From Ridgeia piscesae (taxonomy: Eukaryota; Annelida; Polychaeta; Sabellida; Siboglinidae): 64,000 bases of DNA. The notes below the pieces were generated by a model. The model was not told where the DNA came from, did no database searches, and saw nothing but the letters and a program-made list of their open reading frames with translations. Positions 3,001 to 49,400 of the stretch are shown here, piece by piece. How positions within the stretch are numbered: the stretch's first letter is position 1; the number at the start of each line of letters is the position of its first letter. The stretch covers positions 97,579 through 161,578 of the forward strand of contig JAODUO010001691.1 of the NCBI GenBank assembly GCA_025642075.2, given 5' to 3'. The translations under genes and the position numbers were made by a program.

Positions 3001-3606
3001 AGATAGGTGACTATGAATGTGATGAGGGTGACTATGAATGAGATAGGGTGACTATGAATGTGATGAGGGTGACTATGAATGAGATAGGATGACTATGAAT
3101 GTGATGAGGGTGACTATGAATGAGATAGGATGACTATGAATGTGATGAGGGTGACTATGAATGAGATAGGATGACTATGAATGTGATGAGGGTGACTATG
3201 AATGAGATAGGATGACTATGAATGTGATGAGGGTGACTATGAATGAGATAGGATGACTATGAATGTGATGAGGGTGACTATGAATGAGATAGGATGACTA
3301 TGAATGTGATGAGGGTGACTATGAATGAGATAGGATGACTATGAATGTGATGAGGGTGACTATGAATGAGATAGGATGACTATGAATGTGATGAGGGGGT
3401 GGGCTAAAGACTTTTTGATGAGGGTGACTATGAATGAGACTAGGATGACTATGAATGTGATGAGGGTGACTATGACTATGATGAGGGTGACTATGAATGA
3501 GACTAGGATGACTATGAATGTGATGAGGGTGACTATGACTATGATGAGGGTGACTATGAATGAGACTAGGATGACTATGAATGAGACTAGGATGTCTGAA
3601 TGAAGT
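1..3606. repeat. 42-bp minisatellite (two diverged 21-bp halves)
   Basis: About 85 units alternate ATGACTATGAATGTGATGAGG-like and GTGACTATGAATGAGACTAGG-like 21-mers; a common variant (GAGATAGG) loses one base. Open frames here are artefacts of the 42-bp period. Two blocks (about 780-1130 and 2165-2470) are much more degraded than their surroundings and look like low-quality consensus or old repeats. The array probably lies in the UTP20 intron after exon 29. Confidence 0.95.
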
Positions 3607-5903: not shown

Positions 5904-8900
5904 GCATGTGTTGTGAGTGTGTTCTGAGAGTGAGACGCACATATGTGTATGTGCGTGTGCGTCTGTGTGTTTGTATTTGTGTAATTGTGTGTTGTGCATT
6001 TGTTCTGAGTGTGAGACGCACGTATGCGAATGTGAGTGGATGTGTGTATGTGTGTGTGTCTGTGTGTGTTTGTACATCCATAGTCACATCCTAGATCCAC
6101 TGCAGTTCAAGTCCCGGGCAAACCTGTTAAATCTAACACCACCTAGACTTCTCTGGGAAGCATTCAGCCATACTGCAATTACCACATAAACCATACACAC
6201 CCAGATATCCACCACTGTCTATAGCCAGCTACTCATTCATACAGCCTAGTGAACTGGACCAACACAAAGTGAATGCATTTACACCGAGTCTGAAACTGGA
6301 ATTTATTGATTGTTCTAATCACTGTGCCACTATGCTCAACATCCAAGCCACTTACCCCTGCTGTTTCTTGATGGGAATGATCTGTGACAGATCGACATGA
6401 TCTGTCAGCTCTTTCACCTTTGTGTTGACATCATCTGAGGAAGACAACAGCAGATGGTGACAATGTATGAAAAGTAACTGACATCACACTGAGCTCACTC
6501 TTGTTTTGTGACAATGTAATTCAAAGTGACGATGTATGACAACCTGTGACCTGATATTTTGTCAGTGTTGCACTTGAGTTTTGTATTGTGTTACTTGAAA
6601 ATATGCCAAAGTTGTGCAATGTGACAATTTTGTACTGTGTCACAAACCAATTTGCTACGTGACGTGGTGTGACGTCGTGTTGTGACATCAGTGTGTGACA
6701 ACATGGCGCGTGAAAGAAAACGTGTTGTAACAATGTAGTGCATAATTGAGATGTGACAACATGGTGTGTCAATGTCATGTGACAACATGGCATGACAACA
6801 TGAAGTGACAATGTATTACAAGTCAATGTGCTGTGTGTCGTGGTGTGACAACGTGGTGTGTAAAATGTGGTATAAGAACATTCTGTGACAATGTGGTGTG
6901 ACAACATTGTGTAACAACGTGGTTTGATGACATGATGTGACAATATGGCGTCGCTATATTATATGACAATGTGGTGTGACAACATTATATGACAATGTAG
7001 TTTGATGACATGAAGTGACAATACAATGTGGCTACATTGTATGATAATGTGCTTTGACAACATTATGACAACATTAAATGACAACATGCTGTGACAACAC
7101 TCACCTGATACGAGGTGTAGGAAGGGGTGGAAGACAAGGTCGAGGAAGACCTTGACCTCGCCGGGTTGCGACCCCGCCAGGAACCTTAGGATCATGTTCT
7201 TGCGCATCTGGACATGTTTGTGGCCTGCCGTGTCCTTGCCGGACTTCGCTTGCATCTTGCCATACAGCAGTCTGATCGCCAGACACATGGGGGGACACAT
7301 GGTCTTGGTTAGTTACATTGCATTTATATTTGAAATTTACAGACAAAATTTTTTTTTTTCAACTGCACAACTGCATTGTATTATTGTCAACCGAAGAGCA
7401 TTTAGTTCAATGATACCGTGATGGTTGTATTACGTTAAACTGTATAAGACCGAATTCAATTACGCTATAACCATCTAGTGTAAACAACAAATAGATGTAC
7501 ATTTAAGATCAAAAAGTGAGCATATCTAGGCAGGTCTGATACCTAAAGTAAAAACTCTAATGTCATATTTAATTAGACACACAACATACAAACATCAAAT
7601 TAAAAAATAAGATTCTTGAAATAAAATACAAGTCAGCAAGACGGACATATGAACCATGTCTACTGACTGTGACACAACATTCATTATCAGAGTACTATCC
7701 TGGCTATTAAGTTTAATTATTAATGTATTAATTAAAATGTAATATATCCATAACTGTACCCAGACACAATAAATATAGTTATTATTAAACACAGTTATTA
7801 AGCAGCATTATGCTAACGCAATGCAAAACACTCAATTTATTCCAGTGCTCAATGCATTGTCGACAGAGTTTCAATGCGATCAAGGATGATAAGATGCAAG
7901 GAAGCAATCCCACCTCATGAGGACTGGGATCAGCCCTGGTCGATGTTCACTGAGGATGATCGAGTTCTCCTCAGCAATGCTAAACATCACCAGCTCATTC
8001 TTGAAGCTTTTGTCATCCAAAAGTCGCTCAAAGTTCTCACTGTAACAAAATATTTCTAATAGACATACGATTCTGAGACATGTCTCCGAATGCAATTATT
8101 GCACTGTGCTGGGAGCAGGCATTGTTTCATGAGCATAAATAAATTCTGTCACTTTAATATGTCTATAAAATTATGCTGAAACAGAGTGTTTGTCTCGGTA
8201 AACATTTGTGGAAAGTTTCTATATTTTGGCAAGTGTAGAGGGTCTATACAATTACAATGAACAGATGAATCATGAATGTCAGGTTTGTTTGTCTGGGAAA
8301 CCAGAGAGTGACACAGGACAAGGGTTCAGTGTCCTATAGGGTTTGGATTTTAGGGCTCACATTCCCAAGGGCCTGCAAAATGGAGCAGTCAACTTTTAAT
8401 ATATTCAGCCAATTTCAATTCTAAACTTGCACGAGTCATTGCGTAAAATAACTACGGAATGATCCCTAGCAATGCTCTATAGAGAAATGAATGGCGTCAA
8501 TAAATAACTGGTCCCTAACTGGAGAACACACTTGTCCAACCGACCTGTATGGTGTGAGACACTTGTGACTGTACGTCATGATACAATCAAATGCCACCTT
8601 CTGAACTGACCCGTCAGGATGCTGCAGTAACTGAAATAACAAACAGTGATTGGTCAAATGACTACTAAAATCATCACATTAAATTTATGGTCATGTTAAA
8701 CAAACTCCTTGTGGCAAAAAACCTTCAGAAAAACGTTCATCTGCTTTTGGTGTTGAATACTTTTTTATTTTAATTACAAACACGAAATCTGTACAGTAAA
8801 AAATTATGTAATACTTAAACTGAACAGAATGAAATGCGATGTAACATTACATCAATCTATTTTACTTTGTCACACATGTTTATGCTCACGTCATAATAGA

Positions 8901-11900
8901 GGGATGACAACTTGGGTTCCAAGTAAACCGACTTGGGTTGCTTGAACTTGGAGAAAAGAGTCAGATGAACCACAAGTGTCCTGAAACACAGAAACGCAAC
9001 AACTAGGTCAGGTCAGAGGTTACGACAGGGTGAAAGGTCAAATACGAAAACATGGCTGACAGGTATGGTTAGGAGCTCTGCTTGGTAGAGTTATTCTGTG
9101 ATATGTCATTCAGGTATGTTATTATATTCCTTTCAAGGTATGGATAAAAGGTGAAAACGGGATCGCCCCATCGGATGATGTCTTTCTTTTTCTTCAGCAA
9201 CTTTAACAAACTTTAAAGTGTCAACATAGCAGAATTTACTTATCAAACACCACAGTATTTAACACACCACATGCTACTCATCTGTTGTGTACATACAGAG
9301 GAATAGCCACCCAATTGACCAAGCCTCCAAAACAACCCTGTGACCACAACTCACTTATTTGATGCCCGTCTCCATTCTGTGCCTACTGCACTCTCGTCTG
9401 ATTGGTCAGTTGGTTCCACGACATCATCATCATCTTGAGTGTCATTGACATCGACGTTAGTCGTGTCACCTTGACAGCGACGCACGTCCTGCATCTGGGC
9501 CACGTTGATGTCCGTCGGTCGATGCTCATTGCTGCAAAAGTGTGGGGGGAATGGTGGAAAAGGGTGACCAGAAGGGTTGGAAAAAGTGAATTCAGGTGAA
9601 ATGACAGCTGATTGAAGTCTCCAGTCAGCTGTCATTTAGAGGTCAAGGTAGGATTATTTTAAAATATTGTTTTCATTTAGTATTTTCTGACATATTGGCA
9701 ACTAGCATCTTATTTCTCAACCATTCTCCTTAATTTGAATGCTTTTTCATATTTACATTTATGTGTGGGTAAAATCTATGTATTTTTGTTACATGTAGTT
9801 AAAGTTATGTATTTTTGCTACCAATCGATATATACTGACTGTCAATGAGTCACCTGAATGCATATCCTATAAAATTGTTGTTCACTGGGCAAAAACCTGT
9901 GCAAAGTCATTAGCAAACTAACTTAAATAAAAAATGTATTAAGTGTTAAGAGGCATATAAATATAAAGTCGTTGTGATAGCTATTATGCAATCCATATGG
10001 AAAATTCATGTCTTTACAAACACCTTGAAAATGCAAATGAGGTTCACGACCCTTGACTGCAGTTAGATTATACGTGAAAATAAGACTTACTCGATAAACC
10101 GGAAGAGAAGCGGAGAAATGATGCGGGTCTTTGTCTCACAGATGCCCGGGAAAAGAAGCATCGTCTGCCACAACAACTGTCGCACGTTCGCATAGTCAGG
10201 GTTCTCCGTCTGATTCACCAGCGCCACCTGGTAGTGACCAAACAACTCGGACAGGTCGAAGGTCATTTTATCATCAGACTTGTCTTCTACTTGACTCGTG
10301 TTGGTCACACTCTGTCGCCTGCCGTGTTGTTTTGGCTGCGTGAGTGATCTCTCTGTGAGAAACCATCGGGATTATGGGCAGACACGAATGATAGGAACCA
10401 CAGATAGATTTCGTAGAAACTCCATACAATATCAGATGTTTTTGAGACATCATTCCGTGACAAACTTGTGGGGAATTTTTCTTCTTCTTCAACCAGATAA
10501 CACAGACGAAAAACAGTTTTCTAGAGTAATGAAAAATAACGTTTGCTATAATGTAAACTTTTTCTGTAAATATCCCCTACCGTATTGTAACAATAAAATA
10601 AAATATGCATATTATGAAAACTTCTTTATGGTGTGAACCATACTCCTGATAAAAACTTAATCAACAAGGAATTCAAATACTGTTTGAGATCTGTACTGTT
10701 ACACACCAGACACTTTCATCTAAATCTAAACAGCCAGTGTAATTACATTCATTGTTTACTTCTATAAGAAATCCTTTCCAGCTTCAATCGTCTAGTTCTG
10801 ACTGACGTTTTGTTTACACAGTAAAAACTAACAATAGAAATCAGCTGAAACTTCTACCCAGCTCTGCAATTATTAAAAAACTTACCTTTACAACCTTGCT
10901 TGTTTTACCCCCCCCCCCATAGCCCGCTGGGATATCATCCATCTGTTGACAACTGGAATATTGCTTATCGATTTTGAGATTGGGCAGTACGTTTGTCTCG
11001 ACAACCACATAACAGAAATCATACAATCGGACCTCACCAGACAAATCAGCCGCCATATCGAGGTGTTTCCCAAAGACATCCCAGAATTCTTCCCGGGTCA
11101 TGTGATCGGCATGTGACTTGATGAGCTCCATCACAGGCTGCCACAACATCTTGAAGTTGACGCGGACATTCCGAGAAGGTATCGCAGTGCCACCTACAGG
11201 CAACACAAACAAGTAAACGGGGTCAACGAACTGTGCACACAAGCTACAAATGATGCTACGGTATGCTATGATTTCACTAATAATGCTATAATTAATAATG
11301 CTATAATTAATTAAGTAAGTCTTCTAGACGAAGTTGGATCACATTTTACTTAACTTCTCCTTGTTAATGCCATTGACCATGTGTACAGTAGAACCCCTCA
11401 TTTACGACCGCCCCCCCAAAGCGGAGTGGAGCGGTCTTAAAAGAGGGGTGGTCTCTCATGAGGGGTTTGGTTACTTTGATGTTTTGGATTAATTCATACA
11501 TTTACGCATATCATAATAAGTAATGTCCACATAGCATGTATGCCTGCGATAAAATGCTAAGTAGTGAAATACACACAAAAAAGTTTAAAAAAAGTAGACA
11601 ACACATTAAGAACAACAAAATTATCTATTCTGTTTATTTTATGTGTGACATGTTTCAGTATAAGTTTAATTTGGAATTGTTTTTTATAAATAATATTATC
11701 TGATAAAAAGTATCCTCATTTAATTTATTTCAAATTCAGTCTGAGGGGCTAAGTGCTGCCACCTCACGGCGTCTGGTTAATTGCACCGTGGTCGCCATTT
11801 TATTGTTCTTTCCAGCCGAGAAACTTCCCCTCTAATAACTCATATTACATTGTATTGCTAGGTCATCAAATGAAATCATTAAAATTCCTGTGAAGAATAA

Positions 11901-14900
11901 AATTCACAAATCAAAATCGTGCTAAACTAAAGTCGACATCGCCGGCAGCGGTTACGCGTAGGCCGTAGATTACCGTGGCATTACGTCGATATTTTATCGC
12001 GGTGTCGCTAAATCTGGATTCCGGTTTTATCCTAAACTAACCTAAAACTTAGCCTAAGTTTCTAAACTTTAATCATACACAATATGTATATTACAGTAAT
12101 CACAGAGCTATGCGTAGCCATCGACGATGTCCATGTCCGCCATGATGTCTTGCCGGTGAGTTCTTACGCGAGTCTGTTTAGTGAATTTTATTTGTTTCAA
12201 TAATGTAAGTGATTAAATTTTATACCATAGTGTATGTTTATAAATATATAAGATATGTGAGGAAAGTCTAGCAGCTGTTAGTTGTCATTTTCAAAGTTCG
12301 GTCAGAAAGTAAAAGATCGCCAAAATGAATGGTCATTATCATGCGATTTTTTGTTTTTGTGGCATTATGCACGTCTGTGCCCCGTTAGTCACGCGTTTAA
12401 TAAGAGTTCGTTGCGAAATTTAGGTTAAAAAATGTGCTGGCCACCTATCGGGTGGTCGTTCGTCAGGGGTAAAAGTCAAATTGCTGTAGTCGCTGGTCGC
12501 GTTTGCCGGGTGGTCGTTGATGAAGGTTCATTTATACAGCGTAGACAGTCCGTAAGTGAAAAAACAGTCATAAAAAGTGGGTGGTCGTTAAACAGGGTGG
12601 TCGTTCATGAGGAGTTCCACAGTACCAAACTTTCAAGTGAAGGATACAAAAATGTTACATATCTGTCCCATGGAAAAATGCATGGCTAAACTCACACATC
12701 ACACCAAAATTTTAATAAGGTCTGATGCCACATTGTCTTGACTGTGCCTTCTTCTTCCTATCACAGTATGACCCAAGAGACAGACGTACCTGACTGTATG
12801 ACCCAAGAGACAGACGTACCTGAATGTATGACCCAAGAGAAAGACGTACCTGACTGTATGACCCAAGAGACAGACGTACCTGACTGTATGACCCAAGAGA
12901 CAGACGTACCTGACTGTATGACCCAAGAGACAGACTTACCTGACTGTATGACCCAAGAGAAAGACGTACACGAATGTATGACCCAAGAGACAGACATACC
13001 TGAATGTATGACCCAAGAGAAAGACGTACCTGACTGTATGACCCAACAGACAGACGTACTTGGCTATATGACCCAAGAGACAGACGTACCTGACTGTATG
13101 ACCCAAGAGACAGATGTACCTGACTGTATGGCCCAAGAGACAGACGTACCTGACTGTATGGCCCAAGAGACAGACGTACCTGACTGTATGGCCCAAGAGA
13201 CAGACGTACCTGACTGTATGGCCCAAGAGACAGACGTACCTGACTGTATGACCCAAGAGACAGACTTACCTGACTGTATGACCCAAGAGACAGACGTACC
13301 TGACTGTATGACCCAAGAGACAGATGTACCTGACTGTATGGCCCAAGAGACAGATGTACCTGACTGTATGGCCCAAGAGACAGACGTACCTGACTGTATG
13401 GCCCAAGAGACAGACGTACCTGACTGTATGGCCCAAGAGACAGATGTACCTGACTGTATGGCCCAAGAGACAGATGTACCTGGCTGTATGGCCCAAGAGA
13501 CAGATGTACCTGGCTGTATGGCCCAAGAGACAGACGTACCTGACTGTATGGCCCAAGAGACAGACGTACCTGGCTGTATGGCCCAAGAGACAGACGTACC
13601 TGGCTGTATGGCCCAAGAGACAGATGTACCTGACTGTATGGCCCAAGAGACAGATGTACCTGGCTGTATGGCCCAAGAGACAGACGTACCTGACTGTATG
13701 ACCCAAGAGACAGACGTACCTGACTGTATGGCCCAAGAGACAGACGTACCTGACTGTATGGCCCAAGAGACAGATGTACCTGACTGTATGGCCCAAGAGA
13801 CAGACGTACCTGACTGTATGGCCCAAGAGACAGACGTACCTGACTGTATGGCCCAAGAGACAGACGTATGCTGTATGACCTAAGAGACAGACGTACCTGA
13901 CTGTATGACCCAAGAGACAGACGTACCTGACTGTATGGCCCAAGAGACAGACGTACCTGACTGTATGGCCCAAGAGACAGACGTACCTGACTGTATGGCC
14001 CAAGAGACAGACGTACCTGACTGTATGACCCAAGAGACAGACGTACCTGACTGTATGACCCAAGAGACAGACGTACCTGACTGTATGACCCAAGAGACAG
14101 ACGTACCTGGCTGTATGACCCAAGAGACAGACGTACCTGACTGTATGGCCCAAGAGACAGACGTACCTGACTGTATGACCCAAGAGACAGACGTACCTGA
14201 CTGTATGACCCAAGAGACAGACGTACCTGACTGTATGACCCAAGAGACAGACGTACCTGACTGTATGACCCAAGAGACAGACGTACCTGACTGTATGACC
14301 CAAGAGACAGACGTACCTGACTGTATGACCCAAGAGACAGACGTACCTGACTGTATGACCCAAGAGACAGACGTACCTGACTGTATGGCCCAAGAGACAG
14401 ACGTACCTGGCTGTATGGCCCAAGAGACAGACGTACCTGACTGTATGACCCAAGAGACAGACGTACCTGACTGTATGGCCCAAGAGACAGACGTACCTGA
14501 CTGTATGGCCCAAGAGACAGACGTACCTGACTGTATGGCCCAAGAGACAGACGTACCTGGCTGTATGGCCCAAGAGACAGACGTACCTGACTGTATGACC
14601 CAAGAGACAGACGTACCTGGCTGTATGGCCCAAGAGACAGACGTACCTGACTGTATGACCCAAGAGACAGACGTACCTGACTGTATGGCCCAAGAGACAG
14701 ACGTACCTGACTGTATGGCCCAAGAGACAGACGTACCTGACTGTATGACCCAAGAGACAGACGTACCTGGCTGTATGGCCCAAGAGACAGACGTACCTGG
14801 CTGTATGGCCCAAGAGACAGACGTACCTGACTGTATGACCCAAGAGACAGACGTACCTGACTGTATGACCCAAGAGACAGACGTACCTGGCTGTATGGCC

Positions 14901-17316
14901 CAAGAGACAGACGTACCTGACTGTATGACCCAAGAGACAGACGTACCTGACTGTATGGCCCAAGAGACAGACGTACCTGGCTGTATGGCCCAAGAGACAG
15001 ACGTACCTGCTGTATGACCCAAGAGACAGACGTACCTGACTGTATGACCCAAGAGACAGACGTACCTGACTGTATGGCCCAAGAGACAGACGTACCTGAC
15101 TGTATGACCCAAGAGACAGACGTACCTGACTGTATGGCCCAAGAGACAGACGTACCTGGCTGTATGACCCAAGAGACAGACGTACCTGGCTGTATGACCC
15201 AAGAGACAGACGTACCTGGCTGTATGACCCAAGAGACAGACGTACCTGACTGTATGACCCAAGAGACAGACGTACCTGACTGTATGGCCCAAGAGACAGA
15301 CGTACCTGGCTGTATGGCCCAAGAGACAGACGTACCTGGCTGTATGACCCAAGAGACAGACGTACCTGGCTGTATGACCCAAGAGACAGACGTACCTGAC
15401 TGTATGACCCAAGAGACAGACGTACCTGACTGTATGACCCAAGAGACAGACGTACCTGACTGTATGACCCAAGAGACAGACGTACCTGACTGTATGACCC
15501 AAGAGACAGACATACCTGACTGTATGACCCAAGAGACAGACATACCTGACTGTATGACCCAAGAGACAGACGTACCTGGCTGTATGCCCCAAGGGGCAGC
15601 TGGTTGACCACAACGTCTGCGTCCAGCTTGCGTATATGCAAGAGTTTGTCCCTTGACGTCTGGACACTGAGGGGCACTTGCTCTGCCTCCAGACAGATCC
15701 GAAACACACCCGGCTGGGAGACACCCTGGTGGGGAAAGCAATTGGGGGTCAATAGGTCACATTATTTAAAAAACCGTGACTAAAGTAGTTGTATCAAAAT
15801 TCAAGGTGACTGCCAAGTACCAAATCAAGATTTTTCCACTCATCTGGTTTGATTAAGTTACTTTAATAATTCACTAGTATCTAACCACCCACTTAACCAA
15901 AATTACCTATAAGTTAACACATCAATCTAACCTCTTCAAATACTGACAATTATTTCTGAAAAGTAATGTATGACAATAAAATACTTCCATCAACACGTTT
16001 GATTACTTCAATCGATTGTTAATTTTTTTTGGCAAAATGTCCGTTTGTTTGGTTACTTCGATCAATTATTAATTAAATATTCTGCGTGTGGAGAAAGAAG
16101 TGGTTTACCTGCATCTCGTCCAGACAGGGCATAGGTAAACTGAACTGACAGAAGATCTCCAGCGTCAGCTGCCGGACCTAGAACATGTCAAATGTCTTTT
16201 GTTTACTTAATGTTCTCAGACATCCTACAAATTTGCAACAAATTAAATTTTTCCGTGCTGCTTTTTACAAACAATTTTATTATTGTTTAACAATTTTTTT
16301 CTTTCACAACTAACACGTTTACTTACACATCAACGTTTCGACCAACATCGGTGGCATTCATCATAAACAGTATCTCTACTGCTCGCCAGATGGCGTAGTA
16401 AGCAGACTGTCCCAAACAGTGACTGAGTCTTTAGCCCCCCTGTGTCTCTCTTCATAACTGGTAGTCTTTTTAATCCAGATGGCTTCTTTTACCCACCGCA
16501 CACACGTGTCTGTCTCTCGATCCACCACTTTCGCTCCCTCCGAGTATATCATGCAGTTATGTCTGTCCATTTTTTATTATTATTCTTTTTAGCTTCCAGT
16601 ATATTATACTACTATTTATTGGAATTATTCTTTGTTTTATTATCAATATATTCAGATTAATTTATTGCTATATATAGACTCACTTTCTATTTTAAATGTT
16701 TGATCATTTACTGCTGCTATAGTGTGCCTCTAAATGGCTAGAATGGCGTTATTTATTAACTATAGCTAATAAAACATGCAGAGGAGTGACCAATATATGT
16801 AAACTGAATGTTAAAAGGATGTTTTGTTTCATTTAGACTGCTGATAATTTCATTATTTATGTCTAGGCGTCTAAATATACAATGACGATTTGTAATGGTT
16901 AAACATTTTAGCTACATTTTGATTTTCGATGCTATGCTAAAGAGCAACACTGCAACTGGCCAATGACATCATTGTCAAATTGTTTGTTGTTGCAGATCTA
17001 ATAAACATAACCTATAATACCAACCAAACTGAAACTACAGAACTGCCCTCTGCAACAACAAGCTCCCAGCTATCCCCAACAATACCTGTGAGTATGGTGA
17101 CGACAGGTTTTCCTGCATTGGTTGAAACAGCTGTCTGAAAGTGTCTTCAGAGAGGAGATCATTCCTCGTGTCACCATCAGCGTTGCTGAAGTACAGGTGG
17201 GCAACCCTCAGACATGGCACACTAGACGGCCACCGACTGCAACAGGTAATCCCAGGTATGATTATTACAGGTAATCTCAGATATATATATATATATATTA
17301 CAGGTAATCCCAAATA

Positions 17317-17356
<40 letters not shown>

Positions 17357-17435
17357 CAGGTAATCCCAGGTATGTATATTACAGGTTAATATATATTTAT
17401 ATATATTACAGGTAATCAGGTATGTTTATTACAGG

Positions 17436-17471
<36 letters not shown>

Positions 17472-19094
17472 CATTACAGGTAATCCCAGGTATGTTTATT
17501 ACAGGTATTCCTGGTATGTATATTACATATAATCCCAGGTATGCATGTTACAGGTTTTCCTGGTATATATATATATTACAGGTAATCCCATACGTTTATT
17601 ACATGTAATTCCAGGCATGTCTTTTACGGGTAATCCAAGGTACATGTTTGTTACAGGTAATATCAGGTATATCTATTACAGGTATTCCCAGGTATGTTTA
17701 TTACAAGTAATCCCAGGTATGTTTACCACAGGTAATCCCAGGAATGTCTATCATATGTCTACCGGTATTCCAGGTAGGTATCATATATTGGCTGCTACTG
17801 ATACACCTGTATGCTACACATTTGTTCCTCACTTCATACCACAGATGGCTTAATCACACTTAGTGATGGAAAGAAATACAGACACTTGCTATTGCTGTAA
17901 GTGTAGTAATCAATTACATTGCTAAAGTAATCTTTATCATGACTACAATAACAATGGCATTGCAAAAATACACCTCTTTTTCAGCAGTGCCTGACATCGA
18001 TCTATGTCTACTTCTATGACAAAACATATCATATCAGATCATTTATTGTAATTACTTCCAGTCCACCACTGAACCCGTGAAAACATCAGAATGTGCCACC
18101 AGCATCTGTGACCTCTGACCCCTCTGACCACACACATCTGGATAAATCATTTCTAGGCAATTTATATACTGCCATTGGCCACCATCCAGCTTGTATGTTA
18201 TGGGATGTCAGTGGCACCGAGTTAGTTTACTACAGGAGCTGACCGTTTGATTGCACCAGGAATGTTGGCCAATACGCCAACAAGACAAGTTTGGTGTCTC
18301 TGCCTGCTTGGAAATAATAAAACTATGTCACTAGGTGGCGCCACCATTTTGTCTCTATCAAAGAAGTGTTTCGCTAAGAATTTTCCATGTGTACTGTACA
18401 CTTAATAGAACAAATACAGTATATTTGTTTGCATCTGTCCAAGCAGTCAGTGCGCAGTAACTACCAGGAATCTGTACAATTTAGTAATACATTAACGTAA
18501 TCACAACGACATCCCGAAAGAAATCAAATGTCTCACCGTACGAGTGAAATGATGAAGGTGAGGGAGACAGTCTTGTAGAAGGTGACTGACTCATGTAGTT
18601 GGTGCAGTGTAGAGAGACATTCAAACAACACACACAGACTCGACTCTGAAACAACAGGAAGTCAGTCGTCTTGGTCGTAACTAAAACAGCTGCCAAGAAA
18701 AATGCAAGGCTACCCCTTTTGTTCGTTCTATGGCTGCCACATGTCAAAATCCTCGAAGCATCAACCATCTAACTTGTTCTTTCTTTAGTCACCAATATTT
18801 TTATTTCTACATGACCCTAAACAAAAAGGAATTCAGAAGTAAAAATATATTAATAATAAGGGAATATTTTAACCAATATTGCATTGCTAACATTACTTCA
18901 AGAGGCATCATCTGCTGACGTAAGTGAAATGTAGTATTGCTGATATTATGTCATAAAATTTGATGATTTAATCAATTGATCAGGGTATGGTATTATTAAT
19001 GCCATTTCAAAATCACATATACATCCAGATGTTGTCATTGCCATAAGATATATGTATATATGTATACATATATATATGTGTATGTGTATGTATG

Positions 19095-19128
<34 letters not shown>

Positions 19129-22100
19129 TGTATGTATGTATGTATGTATGTATGTATATATATATATATATACATACATATAATGAAAATAAGTTTGTAG
19201 AGATTAACCAAAAGAAGCCTCAAAATATACACAAGTATTAGTATCTTATTTGTTAATCTAACAAATTAATAATTGTTATTAAAATACATAACATAGGAAT
19301 GCATCTTTGACCATGTCTCAGTGGTCACATGACAACATGTGGACATTCCAACGGTCACTCACTGATGACGGAGGGTGGACAACACAACTGGTCATCTCCT
19401 AACTTCATCTGCAGCTGTGTGAAGACCTTGGTCAAACTGTCCAGTGCCAGGACAGTGTCCAGTGGCTGGAGGTGGGGCAGACAATGTAGGAGGGCCCACA
19501 GTGTGTCCAAGTCTGACAACTGACCACTCAGTCGGTCCAGTTCACTGACCACCCAAGTAGGGAATGATCTGGACGAGTGCCTGGTTGATGCTGGTCCTCT
19601 GAAATGGTTCAGAACAGTTTACTACATGGATGATGGATGTGACACCCCTAACAAAACACCATGAAAGAATGATGTGTCACCCCTAACAAAAACCATGAAA
19701 GAATGATGTGTCACCCCTGACAGGACATGAAAGAATTATGTGGTAGCCCTGCAGAACATGAAAGAATGATGTGGCACCACTGACAGAACATGAAAGAATG
19801 ATGTGTCATCCCTGACAGAACATGAAAGAATGATGTGGCACCCCTAACAAAACACCATGAAAGAATGGTGTGTCACCCCTGACAGAACATGAAAGAATGA
19901 TGTGGCACCCCTGACAGAACATGAAAGAATGACGAGGCCACCCTGACAGAACATGAAAGAATGATGTGACACCCCTGATAGAACATGAAAGAATGATGTG
20001 ACATCCCTGACAGAACAAAAAAGAATGATCAGGCACCGCTGACAGAACATGAAAGAATGATGTGGCAGTCCTGAAAGAACATGAAAGAATGATGTGGCAA
20101 CCCTGGCAGAACATGAAAGAATGATGTGGCACCCCTGACAGAACATGAAAGAATGATGAGGCACCCCTGACAGAACATGAAAGAATGATGTGGCAGCCCT
20201 GACAGAACATAAAAGAATGATGAGGCACCCCTGACAGAACATAAAAGAATGATGAGGCACCCCTGACAGAACATGAAAGAATGATGTGGCAGCCCTGACA
20301 GAACATGAAAGAATGATGTGGCACCCCTGATAGAACATGAAAGAATGGTGTGGCAACCCTGGCAGAACATGAAAGAATGATGTGGCAACCCTGGCAGAAC
20401 ATGAAAGAATGATGTGGCAACCCTGGCAGAACATGAAAGAATGATGTGGCACCCCTGACAGAACATGAAAGAATGATGTGGCAACCCTGGCAGAACATGA
20501 AAGAATGATGTGGCACCCCTGACAGAACATGAAAGAATGATGAGGCACCCCTGACAGAACATGAAAGAATGATGTGGCAGTCCTGAAAGAACATGAAAGA
20601 ATGATGTGGCAACCCTGGCAGAACATAAAAGAATGATGTGGCAACCCTGGCAGAACATGAAAGAATGATGTGGCACCCCTGACAGAACATGAAAGAATGG
20701 TGAGGCACCCCTGACAGAACATGAAAGAATGATGTGGCAGCCCTGACAGAACATGAAAGAATGATGTGGCACCCCTGATAGAACATAAAAGAATGATGAG
20801 GCACCGCTGACAGAACATGAAAGAATGATGTGGCAGTCCTGAAAGAACATGAAAGAATGATGTGGCAACCCTGGCAGAACATGAAAGAATGATGTGGCAA
20901 CCCTGGCAGAACATGAAAGAATGATGTGGCACCCCTGACAGAACATGAAAGAATGATGTGGCAGCCCTGACAGAACATGAAAGAATGATGTGGCAACCCT
21001 GGCAGAACATGAAAGAATGATGTGGCAACCCTGGCAGAACATGAAAGAATGATGTGGCACCCCTGACAGAACATGAAAGAATGATGAGGCACCCCTGACA
21101 GAACATGAAAGAATGATGTGGCACCCCTGACAGAACATGAAAGAATGATTTGGCACCCCTGACAGAACATGAAAGAATGATGTGGCACCACTGACAAACA
21201 TGAAAGAATGATGTGGCACCCCTGACAGAACATGAAAGAATTATATGGCACCCCTGACAGAACAAGAAAGAATCATGTGGCACCCCGTGAAAACATGAAA
21301 GAATCACGTGGCACCCATGACAGAACAAGAAAGAATCATGTGGCACCCCTGACAGAAGAAAGAACTTACGTGACACCCTTGGCAAAACATTTTGGGTCAA
21401 CTAATTTGACGTATGTTACACTATTTTGGTTTATTAAAACAATTACTGACAAACAGAACAACCATTTTAACGTTGACAAATTAAACTGACACATTTGCAA
21501 GGTTGATCGTTTCAATGTTACACCAACAGGACATAGTTCATAGTTGTCATCCTAAACACAATCTATTTGTGTCATCACTGTCATGCCAAATAATATTGCA
21601 AACTAATAATAAAAATAAATGAAATATATACAACAGAGTTTAACTACATTCATGAAAAACATCAAATGTAGTAAGCAGCAACAAAATCACTCATTTGAGG
21701 GCTGTACAATGCAGCATACCTGTTTATGACAGGGGTGAAGTCAAGGGGGTATCCAGCAGGGGTCTGACTGTCACCCTCTGTCGGCACCTTGTGCTGTAGC
21801 AGGGCCAGCAACAAATACAAGACGTCCTCCGTGGGGCTGTCACCTCCAGTGGTGACACAGTCAATCTTCATGACACAGTCGTGACAGTAGCGCAGGGTCG
21901 CAGGCAGCAGGTCCTGGTGATGAAAACAGGAAATAAAAACCAAGATTTGGAAAACAATGATATCCAGCATCAAGCAACACATAATGTTGACACTGGATGT
22001 CCTTTACATTCATCATGGCTTGGCATTTCGTATACGAATGACAAAGGTGGCAGCTAAAGAAAAAAGGGTGTCGAGCATAATTTATGTAGAGACCCATCCA

Positions 22101-25100
22101 CCCGTCATTTGGATGGGTAAAAACCGTTGTGGACGGGTAGAAATATGGGTGAACGGGTAAAAAAATGAAGGAGGAAAAATAGCTCTTCCAAAACCATAGA
22201 TATTGTCAATTATGCCTCAAAAGTGACAGTGTAAATGGTGTCACATGTGTGTTTGTAGTTCATTTTAGATCATCAGACACATTTAAAGTTTGTAAACTGC
22301 AAACTGCCTTAACAGTTAACATCCATGTGTCCACCATGTGGCACAAAGCCCTGGTGTCCAGACACACCACAAATGCAGGGATTCCCCACTGTAACTTAAT
22401 TAGAATGTTAAATTGGTCTCATGAAACCGACCGCAAGCTCCATCAACTAGTGGCTGTTACCTGCAACCAGTAGACCACATAATTGTGTGTAAAGTTACGT
22501 GGCTCTGTGAAACCGACCCAAGGTATTTGAAAATCACCGCTTAACACAGTCACCATCTCTGAGCGCCACACATTAGCATTTTGTTACATCGTATGTATGA
22601 ACATGTGATCTATTTCTGGGACATGGTGAAACAATCTATTGCAATTTTTAAACGGGAGAATGCCTTTCCCCCCAAACATCATTGGGTATGTTGGCTAGTT
22701 TTATATATTTCCTATTATGCATTTCCCATTTCCTGCATATGTGTAAATTAAGTTAGGGTGTTATCTATCATGTATTTGTTTTATTTGTGTAAAAATTAGA
22801 AAACAAGCCTGATGGTCTTCCTACTTATACACTGATACCATCAAAGGTCTTAGCGGTAAAATAACCAGCCAGCGGCTACAATCACCAATCAACATATCCA
22901 AGTGGTTTCAATAGCAAAGAATATGCTGCTGTAAGCCTTGCTAACACAGTTTAACTTCATTTGACTGAAACCCTCAGATCAAATTTGCAAAAGAAAACTC
23001 TAGCACTGAGCTCTCTCTCTCTCTCTGCGTACCTTTTCAAATAGTGGCAGTCCAAAGAGACGTCTGATGAAATTAAACACCTCCCTGCGACTGTAACTGC
23101 TGCTAAATGCCTACAATAAGAGTAAAAGTAAGTTGTCATGTGTCGGCTGTAGATGCTGAAATTCACAAGATAACGAAACTGAAGCTGCATCATAAATGGC
23201 AGTCCTCTCATAAATTCCAAACCAATATGAAAAATGCACAACATTGACAAATAAATACATATACACGGCTGATTCATCAATTTGTTTCATATTTTATTTC
23301 ACGTCTGCTTAAAATGCTGTGAAAACATTTAAAACCAACACCCACTTGAACATAATTTGTTGGTGTCTCAAAGAAATGATCACCCATATAATTATACCAT
23401 GTCAATTTGGTATTTCTTGTGTGTTCGCATTATTACTGTTTGAAAACGAATGATCATATCTTAGTAAAAAATGTATAGAATTAATTAAATACTAATAACG
23501 ATAAAAACTAAAATAATAAAAAAAATTCTTACCGCATTTATGAGGCTTGACCGATGTTGTGGAGCAAGGGGACACCTGGTGGCTAAGAGAAGAGATGCTA
23601 CAATATCAAGCACCAATGACGACTTGTGAATGGCGTCTCCTTTCAACTGTTTCAACAGCATCTGCAACAAAGACCAAGTGAGACCCAACAAAGACCAAGT
23701 GAGACCGCAACAAAGACCAAGTGAGACGGCAACAAAGACCAAGTGAGACGGCAACAAAGACCAAGTGAGACGGCAACAAAGACCAAGTGAGACGGCAACA
23801 AAGACCAAGTGAGACCGCAACAAAGACCAAGTGAGACCGCAACAAAGACCAAGTGAGACGGCAACAAAGACCAAGTGAGACGGCAACAAAGACCAAGTGA
23901 GACCACAACAAAGACCAAGTGAGACTGCAACAAAGACCAAGTGAGACCACAACAAAGACCAAGTGAGACCACAACAAAGACCAAGTGAGACCGCAACAAA
24001 GACCAAGTGAGACCGCAACAAAGACCAAGTGAGACTGCAACAAAGACCAAGTGAGACTGCAACAAAGACCAAGTGAGACTGCAACAAAGACCAAGTGAGA
24101 CGGCAACAAAGACCAAGTGAGACTGCAACAAAGACCAAGTGAGACCCAACAAAGACCAAGTGAGACCACAACAAAGACCAAGTGAGACCCAACAAAGACC
24201 AAGTGAGACCGCAACAAAGACCAAGTGAGACGGCAACAAAGACCAGTGAGACCACAACAAAGACCAAGTGAGCTGCAACAAAGACCAAGTGAGACCGCAA
24301 CAAAGACCAGGTGACACTGCAACAAAGACCAAGTGAGACGCAACAAAGACCAATGACGACTGCAACAAAGACCAAGTGACACTGCAACAAAGACCAAGTG
24401 AACTGCAACAAAGACCAAGTGAGACTGCAACAAAGACCAAGTGAACTGCAACAAAGACCAAGTGAGACTGCAACAAAGACCAAGTGAGACTGCAACAAAG
24501 ACCAAGTGAGACGCAACAAAGACCAAGTGAGACGGCAACAAAGACCAAGTGAGACTGCAACAAAGACCAAGTGAGACGCAACAAAGACCAAGTGAGACGG
24601 CAACAAAGACCAAGTGAGACCACAACAAAGACCAAGTGAGACCGCAACAAAGACCAAGTGAGACCGCAACAAAGACCAAGTGAGACCGCAACAAAGACCA
24701 AGTGAGACCGCAACAAAGACCAAGTGAGACGGCAACAAAGACCAAGTGAGACGGCAACAAAGACCAAGTGAGACGGCAACAAAGACCAAGTGAGACCGCA
24801 ACAAAGACCAAGTGAGACCGCAACAAAGACCAAGTGAGACCGCAACAAAGACCAAGTGAGACCGCAACAAAGACCAAGTGAGACCGCAACAAAGACCAAG
24901 TGAGACCGCAACAAAGACCAAGTGAGACCGCAACAAAGACCAAGTGAGACCGCAACAAAGACCAAGTGAGACCGCAACAAAGACCAAGTGAGACCGCAAC
25001 AAAGACCAAGTGAGACCGCAACAAAGACCAAGTGAGACCGCAACAAAGACCAAGTGAGACCGCAACAAAGACCAAGTGAGACCGCAACAAAGACCAAGTG

Positions 25101-28100
25101 AGACCGCAACAAAGACCAAGTGAGACCGCAACAAAGACCAAGTGAGACCACAACAAAGACCAAGTGAGACCCAACAAAGACCAAGTGAGACCAACAAGAC
25201 CAAGTGAGACCCAACAAAGACCAAGTGAGACCGCAACAAAGACCAAGTGAGACCGCAACAAAGACCAAGTGAGACCGCAACAAAGACCAAGTGAGACCGC
25301 AACAAAGACCAAGTGAGACCACAACAAAGACCAAGTGAGACCACAACAAAGACCAAGTGAGACCGCAACAAAGACCAAGTGAGACGGCAACAAAGACCAA
25401 GTGAGACCGCAACAAAGACCAAGTGAGACCGCAACAAAGACCAAGTGAGACCGCAACAAAGACCAAGTGAGACGGCAACAAAGACCAAGTGAGACTGCAA
25501 CAAAGACCAAGTGACACTGCAACAAAGACCAAGTGACACTGCAACAAAGACCAAGTGAGACTGCAACAAAGACCAAGTGAGACTGCAACAAAGACCAAGT
25601 GAGACTGCAACAAAGACCAAGTGACACTGCAACAAAGACCAAGTGAGACCGCAACAAAGACCAAGTGAGACCGCAACAAAGACCAAGTGAGACCGCAACA
25701 AAGACCAAGTGAGACCGCAACAAAGACCAAGTGAGACCGCAACAAAGACCAAGTGAGACCGCAACAAAGACCAAGTGAGACCGCAACAAAGACCAAGTGA
25801 GACCACAACAAAGACCAAGTGAGACCGCAACAAAGACCAAGTGAGACCGCAACAAAGACCAAGTGAGACGGCAACAAAGACCAAGTGAGACCGCAACAAA
25901 GACCAAGTGAGACCGCAACAAAGACCAAGTGAGACCGCAACAAAGACCAAGTGAGACCGCAACAAAGACCAAGTGAGACGGCAACAAAGACCAAGTGAGA
26001 CTGCAACAAAGACCAAGTGACACTGCAACAAAGACCAAGTGAGACTGCAACAAAGACCAAGTGAGACTGCAACAAAGACCAAGTGAGACTGCAACAAAGA
26101 CCAAGTGAGACTGCAACAAAGACCAAGTGAGACTGCAACAAAGACCAAGTGAGACTGCAACAAAGACCAAGTGAGACCGCAACAAAGACCAAGTGAGACC
26201 GCAACAAAGACCAAGTGAGACCGCAACAAAGACCAAGTGAGACCCAACAAAGACCAAGTGAGACCGCAACAAAGACCAAGTGAGACCACAACAAAGACCA
26301 AGTGAGACCGCAACAAAGACCAAGTGAGACCGCAACAAAGACCAAGTGAGACCGCAACAAAGACCAAGTGAGACCGCAACAAAGACCAAGTGAGACCGCA
26401 ACAAAGACCAAGTGAGACAGCAACAAAGACCAAGTGAGACCACAACAAAGACCAAGTGAGACGGCAACAAAGACCAAGTGAGACCACAACAAAGACCAAG
26501 TGAGACCACAACAAAGACCAAGTGAGACCGCAACAAAGACCAAGTGAGACCGCAACAAAGACCAAGTGAGACCACAACAAAGACCAAGTGAGACCAGCAA
26601 CAAAGACCAAGTGAGACCACAACAAAGACCAAGTGAGACCACAACAAAGACCAAGTGAGACCGCAACAAAGACCAAGTGAGACCACAACAAAGACCAAGT
26701 GAGACCGTGACAAAGACCAAGTGAGACCGCAACAAAGACCAAGTGAGACCGCAACAAAGACCAAGTGAGACCGCAACAAAGACCAAGTGAGACCGCAACA
26801 AAGACCAAGTGAGACCACAACAAAGACCAAGTGAGACGCAACAAAGACCAAGTGAGACCGCAACAAAGACCAAGTGAGACCACAACAAAGACCAAGTGAG
26901 ACCACAACAAAGACCAAGTGAGACTGCAACAAAGACCAAGTGAGACCACAACAAAGACCAAGTGAGACCGCAACAAAGACCAAGTGAGACCACAACAAAG
27001 ACCAAGTGAGACCACAACAAAGACCAAGTGAGACCACAACAAAGACCAAGTGAGACCACAACAAAGACCAAGTGAGACCCAACAAAGACCAAGTGAGACC
27101 ACAACAAAGACCAAGTGAGACCACAACAAAGACCAAGTGAGACCACAACAAAGACCAAGTGAGACCGCAACAAAGACCAAGTGAGACCACAACAAAGACC
27201 AAGTGAGACCACAACAAAGACCAAGTGAGACCACAACAAAGACCAAGTGAGACCGCAACAAAGACCAAGTGAGACTGCAACAAAGACCAAGTGAGACCAA
27301 CAAAGACCAAGTGAGACCACAACAAAGACCAAGTGAGACCGCAACAAAGACCAAGTGAGACCACAACAAAGACCAAGTGAGACCACAACAAAGACCAAGT
27401 GAGACTGCAACAAAACCACCCTAAAGAGAAGCCCATACATTTGTGTGCTACAAAATGAGTAGAGAAAAATAAAACTTGAAATGTAGAATATAGAAATACT
27501 TGTTGGCATTACATTATGGGGCATCAACACAACTGTGGTATTTGAAAACCATTAATCTTTTTTAACACAAACAAGTAACAGAAGAACCTTTCAAAATTAT
27601 ATAATTTTTGTTTAGATTTTCCCTGACGTGATCTAATTACGTTATCATTAAACAAAATGGAAGACTTTCTAGATTAAGGAAATTTGGGAGCAGCTGTAAA
27701 AAGAAGGAACATTTGGGATCTTACACATACCTTGACCACATTGTCCACCGTGTCCGTCACCAGAAGGCCATCTTTGTAGCTGACCCATACCTGCACCAGC
27801 GTAAGCAGACCGGTCAGGTGATCTCTGACCTGTGACCTTGACTTAACCTTTGCCCTCTGCCATTTCTGATGAGTGGACTCTATGCATGACTACAAACAGT
27901 AGCACAGGTCAGCCTGAACATGGTCTTGAATCAATGCATGTAAGTAATTGTATTGTGCATTTATAGCTTGCTGAATGCAAACTATAAATATACTTTACTG
28001 ATTCATCTTTTGAGATAGAAGCCATAAAAGGTTGGTATTTTTGCCTGATACCATACAACATTCAATTTATTTTCTTAAAACACATTCACCTTTAAAAAAG

Positions 28101-46433: not shown

Positions 46434-49400
46434 GTAGGATCACATTATTCACTGTGATTTGTGTTTCGTTATCCCATTTTAGATTATATGTGGCAGTTTT
46501 ATAGTAAAATTTCATGTTTCTGTAATGTGAACATCTAAAAATGTATTAATTTATTTTATTATAATATATATGTATACATATTATATAATCACATGTACAC
46601 CCATGACAAATATTTACAACACATACATGCATGTAATTTTTCACATGCATTATATTCACACGCATTTATACTATTTTTATTAGTGCTTAAGAGTAGTCAT
46701 AACTACTGTGTACATACTCCAAAAACAAATGTAGTGCTGGCCGTTTACATATAGAACACATTTCCAGATCTACCTAAACATATGCCGAACATCACTTGCA
46801 TGTTCATTTCAGTACAAGTATCCAGATATTGCAAAGCGCGATATCCTGAAAGTGTTCAATTCTTACAATGACCTCAGACCTGTTCTCGACTCCTTTGGTA
46901 AGTTTTATAACTCAAAATAATTAAAGCAAAGGTCTGAGCTTGCATATTTTGAAGGATTTAGGCGTTATAGAAGTTTTATATTTAAAAATTATTATTCACA
47001 ATTATTATTTTGGTGTCTACTCAAATGTAAATTCCTTTAGTGTCTAATAATCAGGTAAATTAATAGTTACCTGGTAATTTGATCAAACGTTTTAGTTTTT
47101 CATATCCATATCGACAATAATACTTAACTTTCGTATTCATCTTCATACCTATTTTCTGTTGGCACTTGTGAACCACCAATCCACACATATTGTGCCATTG
47201 CTCATGCGTAGCCTAGTACTGATCAGGTAGAGTGTGATTCTCATTACACAGTGGCCATGTGTTGGTGTTTCAGTGTTCAACGATGGGACAAGGAAGGAAT
47301 TGCTCTGTCTGGATGGCACAGTACCTGTGCCTTATAAAGGTACATTCAGCCACAGTTCAACTGACTGCAAAAACAGATTGTAAACAGTAGCGGGCTCAAA
47401 GATAAAAGTAGCCTTCCTACAGTAATTACACAGCAAATTATGTGTTCACTTTTCATTGCCTTTATGTACATTTGTAAGTCGTTTGTACTGGCAAAGCCCA
47501 CAATTCTGTCACAATTTATAAAAACAACATTTCTTGGTGTTTTTACAGGTTTCTGTTGCCCTAAATAGTATTATTCTACTAACCATGATGCACTTGAAGT
47601 AATATCATATGTTGTGTTCATATGTTGTGTGATTAATTGTTTACTGAATCTGTATTATGTGTGACAATGTGATTAGCTGGCATACTTGAAACAAATGTTG
47701 TATTGGCCGTCATACCTGAGATGTGGGTTGTGTGATTGGCTGTCACAAGTATGAGAAGTGTTGTGTAACTGGCTATCACTCATGGGTGAGAGAACTGTTA
47801 TGTGATTGGCTGTCACATATAAAAGAAGCAGTGTGTGATTGGCTATCATGAGTGAGACAAGTGTTGTGTGATTGGCTGTCATGAGTGAGACGAGTGTTGT
47901 GTGATTGGCTGTCATGGGTGAGACGAGTTTTGTGTGATTGGCTGTCATGAGTGATACGAGTGTTATGTGATTGGCTATCATGAGTGAGAAGAGTGTTGTG
48001 TGATTGGCTGTCATGAGTGATACGAGTGTTATGTGATTGGCTATCATGAATGAGACGAGTGTTGTATGATTGGCTGTCATGAATGACACAAGTGTTGTAT
48101 GATTGGCTGTCATGAATGAGACAAGTGTTGTGTGATTGGCTATCATGAATGAGACAAGTGTTGTGTGATTGGTTATAATGAGTGAGAAGAGTGTTGTGTG
48201 ATTGGCTATCATGAATGAGACAAGTGTTGTGTGATTGGTTATAATGAGTGAGAAGAGTGTTGTGTGATTGGCTATCATGAATGAGACAAGTGTTGTGTGA
48301 TTGGCTATCATGAATGAGACAAGTGTTGTGTGATTGGCTGTCATGAGTGAGACGAGTGTTGTATGATTGGCTGTCATGAATGAGACAAGTGTTGTGTGAT
48401 TAGCTATCATGGGTGAGGCGAGTGTTGTGTGATTGGCTGTCATGAGTGAGACAAGTGTTGTGTGATTGGCTATCATGAGTGAGACAACTGTTGTGTGATT
48501 GGTTATAATGAGTGAGAAGAGTGTTGTGTGATTAGATGTCATGAGTGAGACGAGTGTTGTGTGATTGGCTGACATGAGTGAGACAAGTGTTGAGTGATTG
48601 GCTGTCATGAGTGAGACGAATGTTGTGTGATTGGCCGTCATGAGTGAGATAAGTGTTGTGTGATTGGCTGTCATGAGTGAGACAAGTGTTGTGTGATTGG
48701 CTGTCATGAGTGAGACAAGTGTTGAGTGATTGGCTGTCATGAGTGAGACGAGTGTTGTGTGATTGGCTGTCATGAGTGAGACAAGTGTTGTGTGATTGGC
48801 TATCATGAGTGAGACAAGTGTTGTGTGATTGGCTGTCATGAATGAGAGAAGTGTTGAGTGGCTGATAGTTATACGTGTGATGTGCTCGCAGGGAACACTT
48901 ACAACATCCCGATATGTCTGTGGCTGATGGACAGGCACCCATTCAACCCCCCAATGGTGTTTGTGAAGCCCACCAGTACCATGATGCTCAAGACTGGTCG
49001 ACACATCGACGGCACCGGGCGCGTCAACCTGCCATATCTGCACGAGTGGAAACCTGTAAGTTACAGAAGTCACTGCATGGTCAGACAAATTTGGCAATTT
49101 CACTTAGATATTCAAAAATAAACATTGCTAAGGAAGTCACCATGTGATTGAATTCTCATTAACTCCTGAAAATCATATTTTAAAAAGATTCCCAAATTCA
49201 GTTAATACATTTATATTGTGAATGTAGTGTCTATGTACGCATAAAATGGATTTTGTTAAAAACTTCTTTTTGTTCGTGCAGCCACAGACAGGCTTCAAGT
49301 TGTTTCTTCCTATCAAGACCAACTTCACTGAGGTTCATGTTGTTTCTTCCTGTCGAGACCAATTTCACTGAGGTCCATGCTTCTTCCTATCGAGACCAAC

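Follow-up and report, generated by a model that had tools for sequence, protein, structure and literature searches.

A minisatellite built on a 5' splice site of UTP20 in Ridgeia piscesae, and tandem arrays beside other splice sites of two neighbouring genes

How does the spliceosome choose a donor when the end of an exon and the start of its intron together form the unit of a long tandem array? The question is raised by the UTP20 gene of Ridgeia piscesae, which runs on the minus strand of the 64,000-nucleotide stretch analysed here (the window; bases 97579-161578 of contig JAODUO010001691.1, which ends at 161,578, in an assembly of 628 Mb). One short exon of this gene is bordered by a 30-bp array that holds the authentic donor junction and 93 intron copies of it. 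The explanation that we consider probable is that tandem duplication across splice junctions was followed by neutral expansion, with the donor nearest the exon winning and the others being ignored as decoys.

Anatomy and donor strength of the UTP20 array

Tandem Repeats Finder (TRF) reported a single array at 12766-15593 (period 30, 94.4 copies, 96% matches). Its unit consists of the last ~18 exon bases and the first ~12 intron bases of the UTP20 exon, so that the array starts 18 bases inside the 3' end of the exon. A preliminary description of this DNA had taken the donor, with the last exon bases, to be the unit of a 30-bp array of about 94 copies, and the TRF count and our unit list (the authentic junction and 93 further copies) bear this out. 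Unit spacing, anchored on the unit, is 30 bp throughout except for one unit of 29 bp and one of 27 bp (Table 1). When the donor 9-mers are counted with the authentic site included, CAGGTACGT occurs 77 times, CAGGTACAT nine times, CAGGTATGT three times and CAGGTAAGT twice, and three are damaged (units 57, 84, and 87). Among the 93 intron copies, 76 carry the exact authentic 9-mer, nine GTACAT, three GTATGT, and two GTAAGT, the remaining three being the damaged ones.

The GT of the donor is invariant across the 91 full-length units, and donor positions +4 and +5 rank among those that vary more. Unit position 7 is G in the exon copy and T or C in all 91 full-length copies, an oddity that would be expected if a copy at the edge escaped homogenisation. 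A non-synonymous Ser/Pro difference in the repeat peptide VRLSLG(S/P)YSQ divides the units 48:43 of 91, and no constraint on the repeat peptide was detected in this comparison.

Donor strength was evaluated with predicted U1 pairing energy and a weight matrix, in place of MaxEnt. By the weight matrix, 81 of the 93 copies score at least as high as the authentic donor, nine are slightly weaker, and three are damaged. Predicted U1 pairing is -12.1 kcal/mol for CAG|GTAAGT vs -7.9 for the authentic site, and -8.3 kcal/mol, marginally better than authentic, for the GTATGT copies (units 1, 2, and 86). The two distal GTAAGT donors that had been called stronger than the authentic one, at about 12934 and 13264, were thus recovered as such (Table 1). 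They lie 2.6 and 2.3 kb downstream of the authentic donor, and their use would give exons of ~2.8 and ~2.5 kb, respectively, which would be long for exon definition.

The term mirage minisatellite has been used for arrays in the lancelet Adh3, globin, TnC, and PGBD5 genes (PMC3087553, PMC3902484). Judged by its structure, the UTP20 array is such a minisatellite: a unit of minisatellite size contains the CAG|GT junction, and the copies carry the splice signal, 81 of 93 of them at authentic strength or above.

Arrays beside other splice sites

The same contig offers further cases in UTP20 and in the neighbouring gene on the plus strand at the opposite end of the window, which we take to be TSG101 instead of a paralog. 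Thirteen of the 21 intron arrays in these two genes lie within 45 bp of a splice site of their own intron, where 2.9 would be expected under random in-intron placement (P ~5e-8), and eight of the 21 lie within 10 bp (0.7 expected). The 45-bp cut-off was picked after the distances were seen; the concentration is also significant at 10, 20, 60, and 100 bp, and a threshold-free Fisher combination gives P 5e-10. The 21 arrays are those whose introns have a known donor and a known acceptor, and they include two small arrays counted as misses (13 of 19 without them). Excluded were the TSG101 arrays at 51993-56636 and 56762-62245 (an exon seems to be missing there and the intron is undefined), dinucleotide and tetranucleotide arrays, arrays of fewer than four copies or under ~100 bp, and TRF rows near 36 and 45 kb.

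Acceptors account for ten of the 13 splice-anchored arrays and donors for three. The 22-bp acceptor array has 32 AG sites in ~170 units that score at least as high as the authentic acceptor. Its AG-bearing copies begin 271 nt from the exon, and we claim no purging of decoys near the exon in this array, the median distance being 1863 for AG-bearing copies vs 1995 for the others. Units of the 40-bp TSG101 array carry acceptor-like sites (TTTCTTCCTGTGCAG), two of which score at least as high as the authentic one, and the last TSG101 array, whose unit spans the acceptor, has 31 such decoys. In the second large donor array of UTP20, in intron I31, 35 decoys score at least as high as the donor, and most of them would break the frame because the unit is 32 bp. 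An in-frame TAG stands directly after the I31 donor, and use of decoys or retention there would truncate UTP20. Six of the ten acceptor arrays have no decoy scoring as well as the authentic acceptor, so that only some of the anchored arrays are mirages proper.

Beyond this contig, minisatellites (period of at least 10, at least three copies) cover 48,284 of 200,000 bases (~24%) in 20 arbitrary stretches from 20 other contigs, with 0 to 98% coverage per 10-kb stretch. Three of the 28 exons predicted in this random 200-kb sample lie no more than 45 bp from one of its 31 arrays; only one of the three, SMC3, was confirmed as a gene, and its array starts within ~10 bp of a donor. This proximity backs the concentration at splice sites weakly.

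Table 1. Positions of the UTP20 array, its exons and donors, and of other splice-anchored arrays (window coordinates unless stated)
Feature	Position	Strand	Basis or remark
30-bp donor-type mirage array: authentic junction copy and 93 intron copies	12766..15593	-	TRF, unit list, 9-mer counts
Authentic 5' splice site CAG|GTACGT; intron starts at 15575	15570..15578	-	Unit list and human-aligned flanking exons
UTP20 exon, 150 nt, 50 codons, ends LPLGAYSQ, phase 0 on both sides	15576..15725	-	Open frame, acceptor CACCAG|, donor CAG|GTACGT
Next UTP20 exon, starts VALRYLLGM (human VPLRYLLGM)	11038..11193	-	By-eye reading and human alignment
Unit no. 19, 29 bp	14996..15024	-	Unit list
Unit no. 57, 27 bp, donor destroyed	13859..13885	-	Unit list
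Decoy donor, unit 77, CAG|GTAAGT, better U1 match than authentic	13264..13272	-	9-mer counts, U1 pairing
Decoy donor, unit 88, CAG|GTAAGT	12934..12942	-	9-mer counts, U1 pairing
22-bp array (I5)	23664..27418	-	Ends 2 bp from acceptor of exon starting 23661
32-bp array (I7)	19636..21357	-	Ends 37 bp from acceptor; 51 decoy AGs equal or outscore the authentic one
25-bp array	17281..17758	-	Ends 44 bp from acceptor; acceptor resembles diverged unit
Degenerate 26-bp array (I17)	6750..7099	-	Starts 5 bp past UTP20 donor; no equally good decoy
33-bp array	47727..48860	+	Ends 31 bp from TSG101 acceptor; no decoy equalling authentic
40-bp array (T3)	49294..50457	+	Ends 20 bp from TSG101 acceptor
52-bp array	62247..63011	+	Unit spans TSG101 acceptor and ~8 exon bases (TTGTAG|AGTGATGT)
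Second large UTP20 donor array (I31), 32-bp unit, ~65 copies	Contig 82708-84791 (outside window)		

Origin of the array and choice of donor

A duplication origin is suggested because the unit matches the end of the exon and the start of the intron. A short tandem duplication would once have spanned the UTP20 junction, with ~18 exon and ~12 intron bases, and would have given two equal donors. Further copies would be invisible to the mRNA and hence free to multiply, and expansion with homogenisation would have led to the 93 copies, all of which are now intronic. Splicing most likely takes place at the exon-nearest copy only, the other 93 being decoys and the 30-bp period coincidental. The first donor should win because the exon is short (150 nt) and its flanking introns are long (~1.36 kb and ~4.38 kb), which is a setting for exon definition. 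At acceptors, likewise, the copy nearest the exon should win, and the same process may have placed arrays at many acceptors and a few other donors of the host genome.

In published minigenes that carried a pair of identical strong donors, exon definition led to exclusive use of the upstream one, and genome-wide the upstream of two near-equal donors was preferred in 60% of all such events, with the strict exon-definition class leaning upstream as well (PMC9225289). In the lancelet studies, mirages are reported to be regularly spliced, without aberrant mRNAs (PMC3087553, PMC3902484). Of the two possibilities raised in the preliminary description, a ladder of donors to be ignored by the cell would fit both sets of results.

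Several points weigh against this account. Donor strength decides 86% of events genome-wide, an older intron-centred rule (intron definition) favours the downstream donor, and in minigenes weak identical donors with larger exons led to skipping of the exon (PMC9225289). Five decoys of the UTP20 array exceed the authentic donor in U1 pairing, two of them clearly and the nearest two marginally. In the human study of minisatellites at exon-intron boundaries, alternative-transcript support exists for 66% of the intron modifications (PMC2812944), and one lancelet repeat array was annotated as an exon by the Joint Genome Institute (JGI), an annotation that the authors of that study doubt (PMC3902484). 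Eight of our 21 arrays lie away from any splice site, and in the random sample an array of an EphR-like gene ends 46 bp from an acceptor, just outside the 45-bp cut, and two innexin-intron arrays lie 103 and 185 bp from the intron ends. Finally, exon edges were taken by script as the best-scoring splice sites in the sequence, without transcripts; introns I8 and I34 have ambiguous donors, and the donor of I22 is weakly placed.

Reading frame and alternative explanations

The preliminary description had also held that 30-bp steps keep the reading frame. As assembled, 18 of the 93 alternative donors are frame-preserving: the insertions made by units 1-18 would be 30 to 540 nt long, free of stops and in frame, but the other 75 are frame-breaking. 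The donors from unit 19 onward are out of frame because that unit is 29 bp, which makes the insertion 2 mod 3; from unit 78 onward it also contains a stop (16 of the 75). The 29-bp unit may itself be an error because the assembly has indel errors, and the true count of in-frame donors could be as low as 18 or include almost every copy. Translations of COX1 on the mitochondrial contig (C3158, 15,640 bases), read by eye, show at least three frame changes, which would be a sign of consensus indel errors or of a nuclear copy, and the UTP20 exon that follows the array exon seems to lack one base when set against the human frame. We found no sign of selection on frame among the 13 splice-anchored arrays, and because only three of them have a period divisible by three, the in-frame period of the UTP20 array looks accidental.

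These counts bear directly on the proposal that the array yields a graded set of UTP20 isoforms with ten-residue insertions, which had been raised for this locus and is not supported by our results. The open frame of the first 18 copies, the near-uniform donor 9-mers (nearly all identical to the authentic one or better), and the alternative transcripts that often accompany human boundary minisatellites (PMC2812944) would all be in its favour. Set against them are the 75 out-of-frame donors, the rarity of periods that are multiples of three (3 of 13), the TAG right after the I31 donor in an array of period 32, the even Ser/Pro split, and the success of the exon-nearest donor in minigenes (PMC9225289), and we regard graded isoforms as unlikely.

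An assembly artefact in the copy number or position of the array seems to us still less likely. Long arrays are easily collapsed or stretched, and this assembly has indel errors and garbled stretches (~56637-56761 and within 1-3594), but the exon-side edge of the array joins sequence for which scoring 40 of 287 candidates gave a single full-length match in the genome (this holds for the exon side alone), and splice-anchored arrays of quite different sequence recur on the same contig and on another. Among the same 40 of 287 candidates, no second allele was found for a comparison of array length.

About as improbable is a function for the array as such, whether as many U1 sites that suppress premature intronic polyadenylation or as a reserve of donors that would stand in if the authentic one were lost. 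The 81 copies with donors at least as good as the authentic site and the invariant GT could be read in this way; however, homogenisation accounts for the uniformity, donor positions +4 and +5 are among the more variable, and the anchored arrays stand mostly at acceptors (10 of 13). Least credible is occasional translation of the entire array, either as a domain of repeats in the protein or through intron retention. A reading frame that continues out of the exon is open for 769 codons, but the repeat peptide lacks any sign of constraint over its 91 units (Ser/Pro 48:43) and human UTP20 aligns straight across the junction, going directly from the sequence of the array exon into that of the next.

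Comparison with known systems

The nearest relatives of the UTP20 array in structure are the lancelet mirages of Adh3, the globins BflGb6 and BflGb9, TnC, and PGBD5, in which units span the exon-intron boundary, copies carry splice signals, and both 5' and 3' boundaries are affected (PMC3087553, PMC3902484). The edge copy of the BflGb6 mirage likewise escapes homogenisation (PMC3087553), and somatic length instability is reported for the Adh3 mirage (PMC3087553, PMC3902484). Two to seven copies are given for the lancelet globin and PGBD5 arrays, whereas UTP20 has ~93 donor copies. The present host also belongs to another animal group, two adjacent genes have arrays next to 13 of their splice sites, and some of the units exclude the boundary.

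Tandem alternative donors of the GTNNGT type comprise two competitors a few bases apart. The UTP20 donors are also adjacent and in competition, but they lie 30 bp apart and number 93. The potato RdRp gene is said to have gained an intron through tandem duplication of AG|GT sites. The model of Rogers for such gains likewise involves duplication across a proto-splice site (PMC3087553); in UTP20, in contrast, an existing intron only grows and none is created. Boundary tandem repeats in recent human paralogs are minisatellites with units of 30 bp on average that alter gene structure, but they average ~4 repeats, arise in recent segmental duplications, whereas UTP20 is single-copy, and are linked to novel introns and alternative transcripts (PMC2812944). 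The proximity rule across the exon in exon definition also concerns identical donors competing behind one exon, with two donors in a minigene vs 94 in a natural gene here (PMC9225289). A nematode minisatellite has been linked to alternative exons (PMC4039745), and the available part of a study of cone-snail introns mentions simple repeats alone (PMC3862624).

Our search of the openly licensed PMC literature on splice-site-spanning minisatellites recognised no case named a mirage outside lancelets. As far as that search goes, the non-lancelet host, the ~93 donor copies, and the clustering of arrays near the splice sites of two genes are new, and they suggest that large mirage minisatellites are no lancelet peculiarity. 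The locus offers a test, set up by nature, of donor choice by the spliceosome when the candidates are equal: a single genuine exon is followed by 94 near-identical competing donors in 30-bp steps, a few of them stronger, and the same genes contain acceptor arrays. The finding that tandem intron arrays can concentrate at splice sites also bears on how introns lengthen. As a tentative extension, which we would hold somewhat more doubtful than not, minisatellites that start at splice junctions, more often at acceptors than at donors, may be the main way in which introns of the host lineage grow. An array containing the junction would be self-buffering because, whenever it gains or loses units, the exon would still end in an equivalent splice signal, and the architecture would be convergent with that of lancelets, with decoys ignored in both through exon definition.

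Host lineage

Mitochondrial gene order and an innexin gene speak against a lancelet host; taken by themselves, they would make a mollusc likely, or else one of its close lophotrochozoan relatives. The mitochondrial contig, read by eye, has nad3, nad2, cox1, cox2, and atp8 in this order on one strand, which other lophotrochozoans such as phoronids share and from which the lancelet order differs. The same order agrees with that of molluscs (PMC11488289). Innexin, found in the host genome as a match to PF00876 (E 5.6e-37), fits a protostome. A tRNA search of the mitochondrial loci with the bacterial code found none.

Gene models and other elements of the window

Of 41 typed exon cores, 40 were located on contig bases 57600-161578. 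The UTP20 exon peptides are collinear with human UTP20 (PDB 7mq8_SP) over residues 109-257 and 667-869 (E 9.8e-68 overall), residues 419-544 being a weak stretch within the alignment, and the exon bearing the array aligns from residue 667. The preliminary description calls it exon 19; ten coding exons were found upstream of it, and the true start of the gene may be further out. Pfam searches with two UTP20 pieces gave no match. For TSG101, a Pfam search identified the UEV domain (PF05743, E 1.5e-28), and two other exon pieces gave no match. A TSG101 exon of ~32 residues, to be expected from the human protein, was looked for by eye in 51788-63004 and not found, and it may be an assembly loss. 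The stretch at 56637-56761, between the two large arrays of this region, looks like garbled consensus. At the other end of the window (1-3594), a 41-bp array contains blocks of degraded units (~781-1150 and ~2165-2460) that resemble poorly corrected long-read consensus.

Two elements of another kind lie in UTP20 introns. The intron upstream of the array exon holds a dispersed repeat (~16289-16568) that has, among the matches listed, copies on at least 39 other contigs, mostly 76-82% identical, and is probably a transposon remnant. A long fold-back (inverted repeat) element at ~28610-28890 resembles a miniature transposon.

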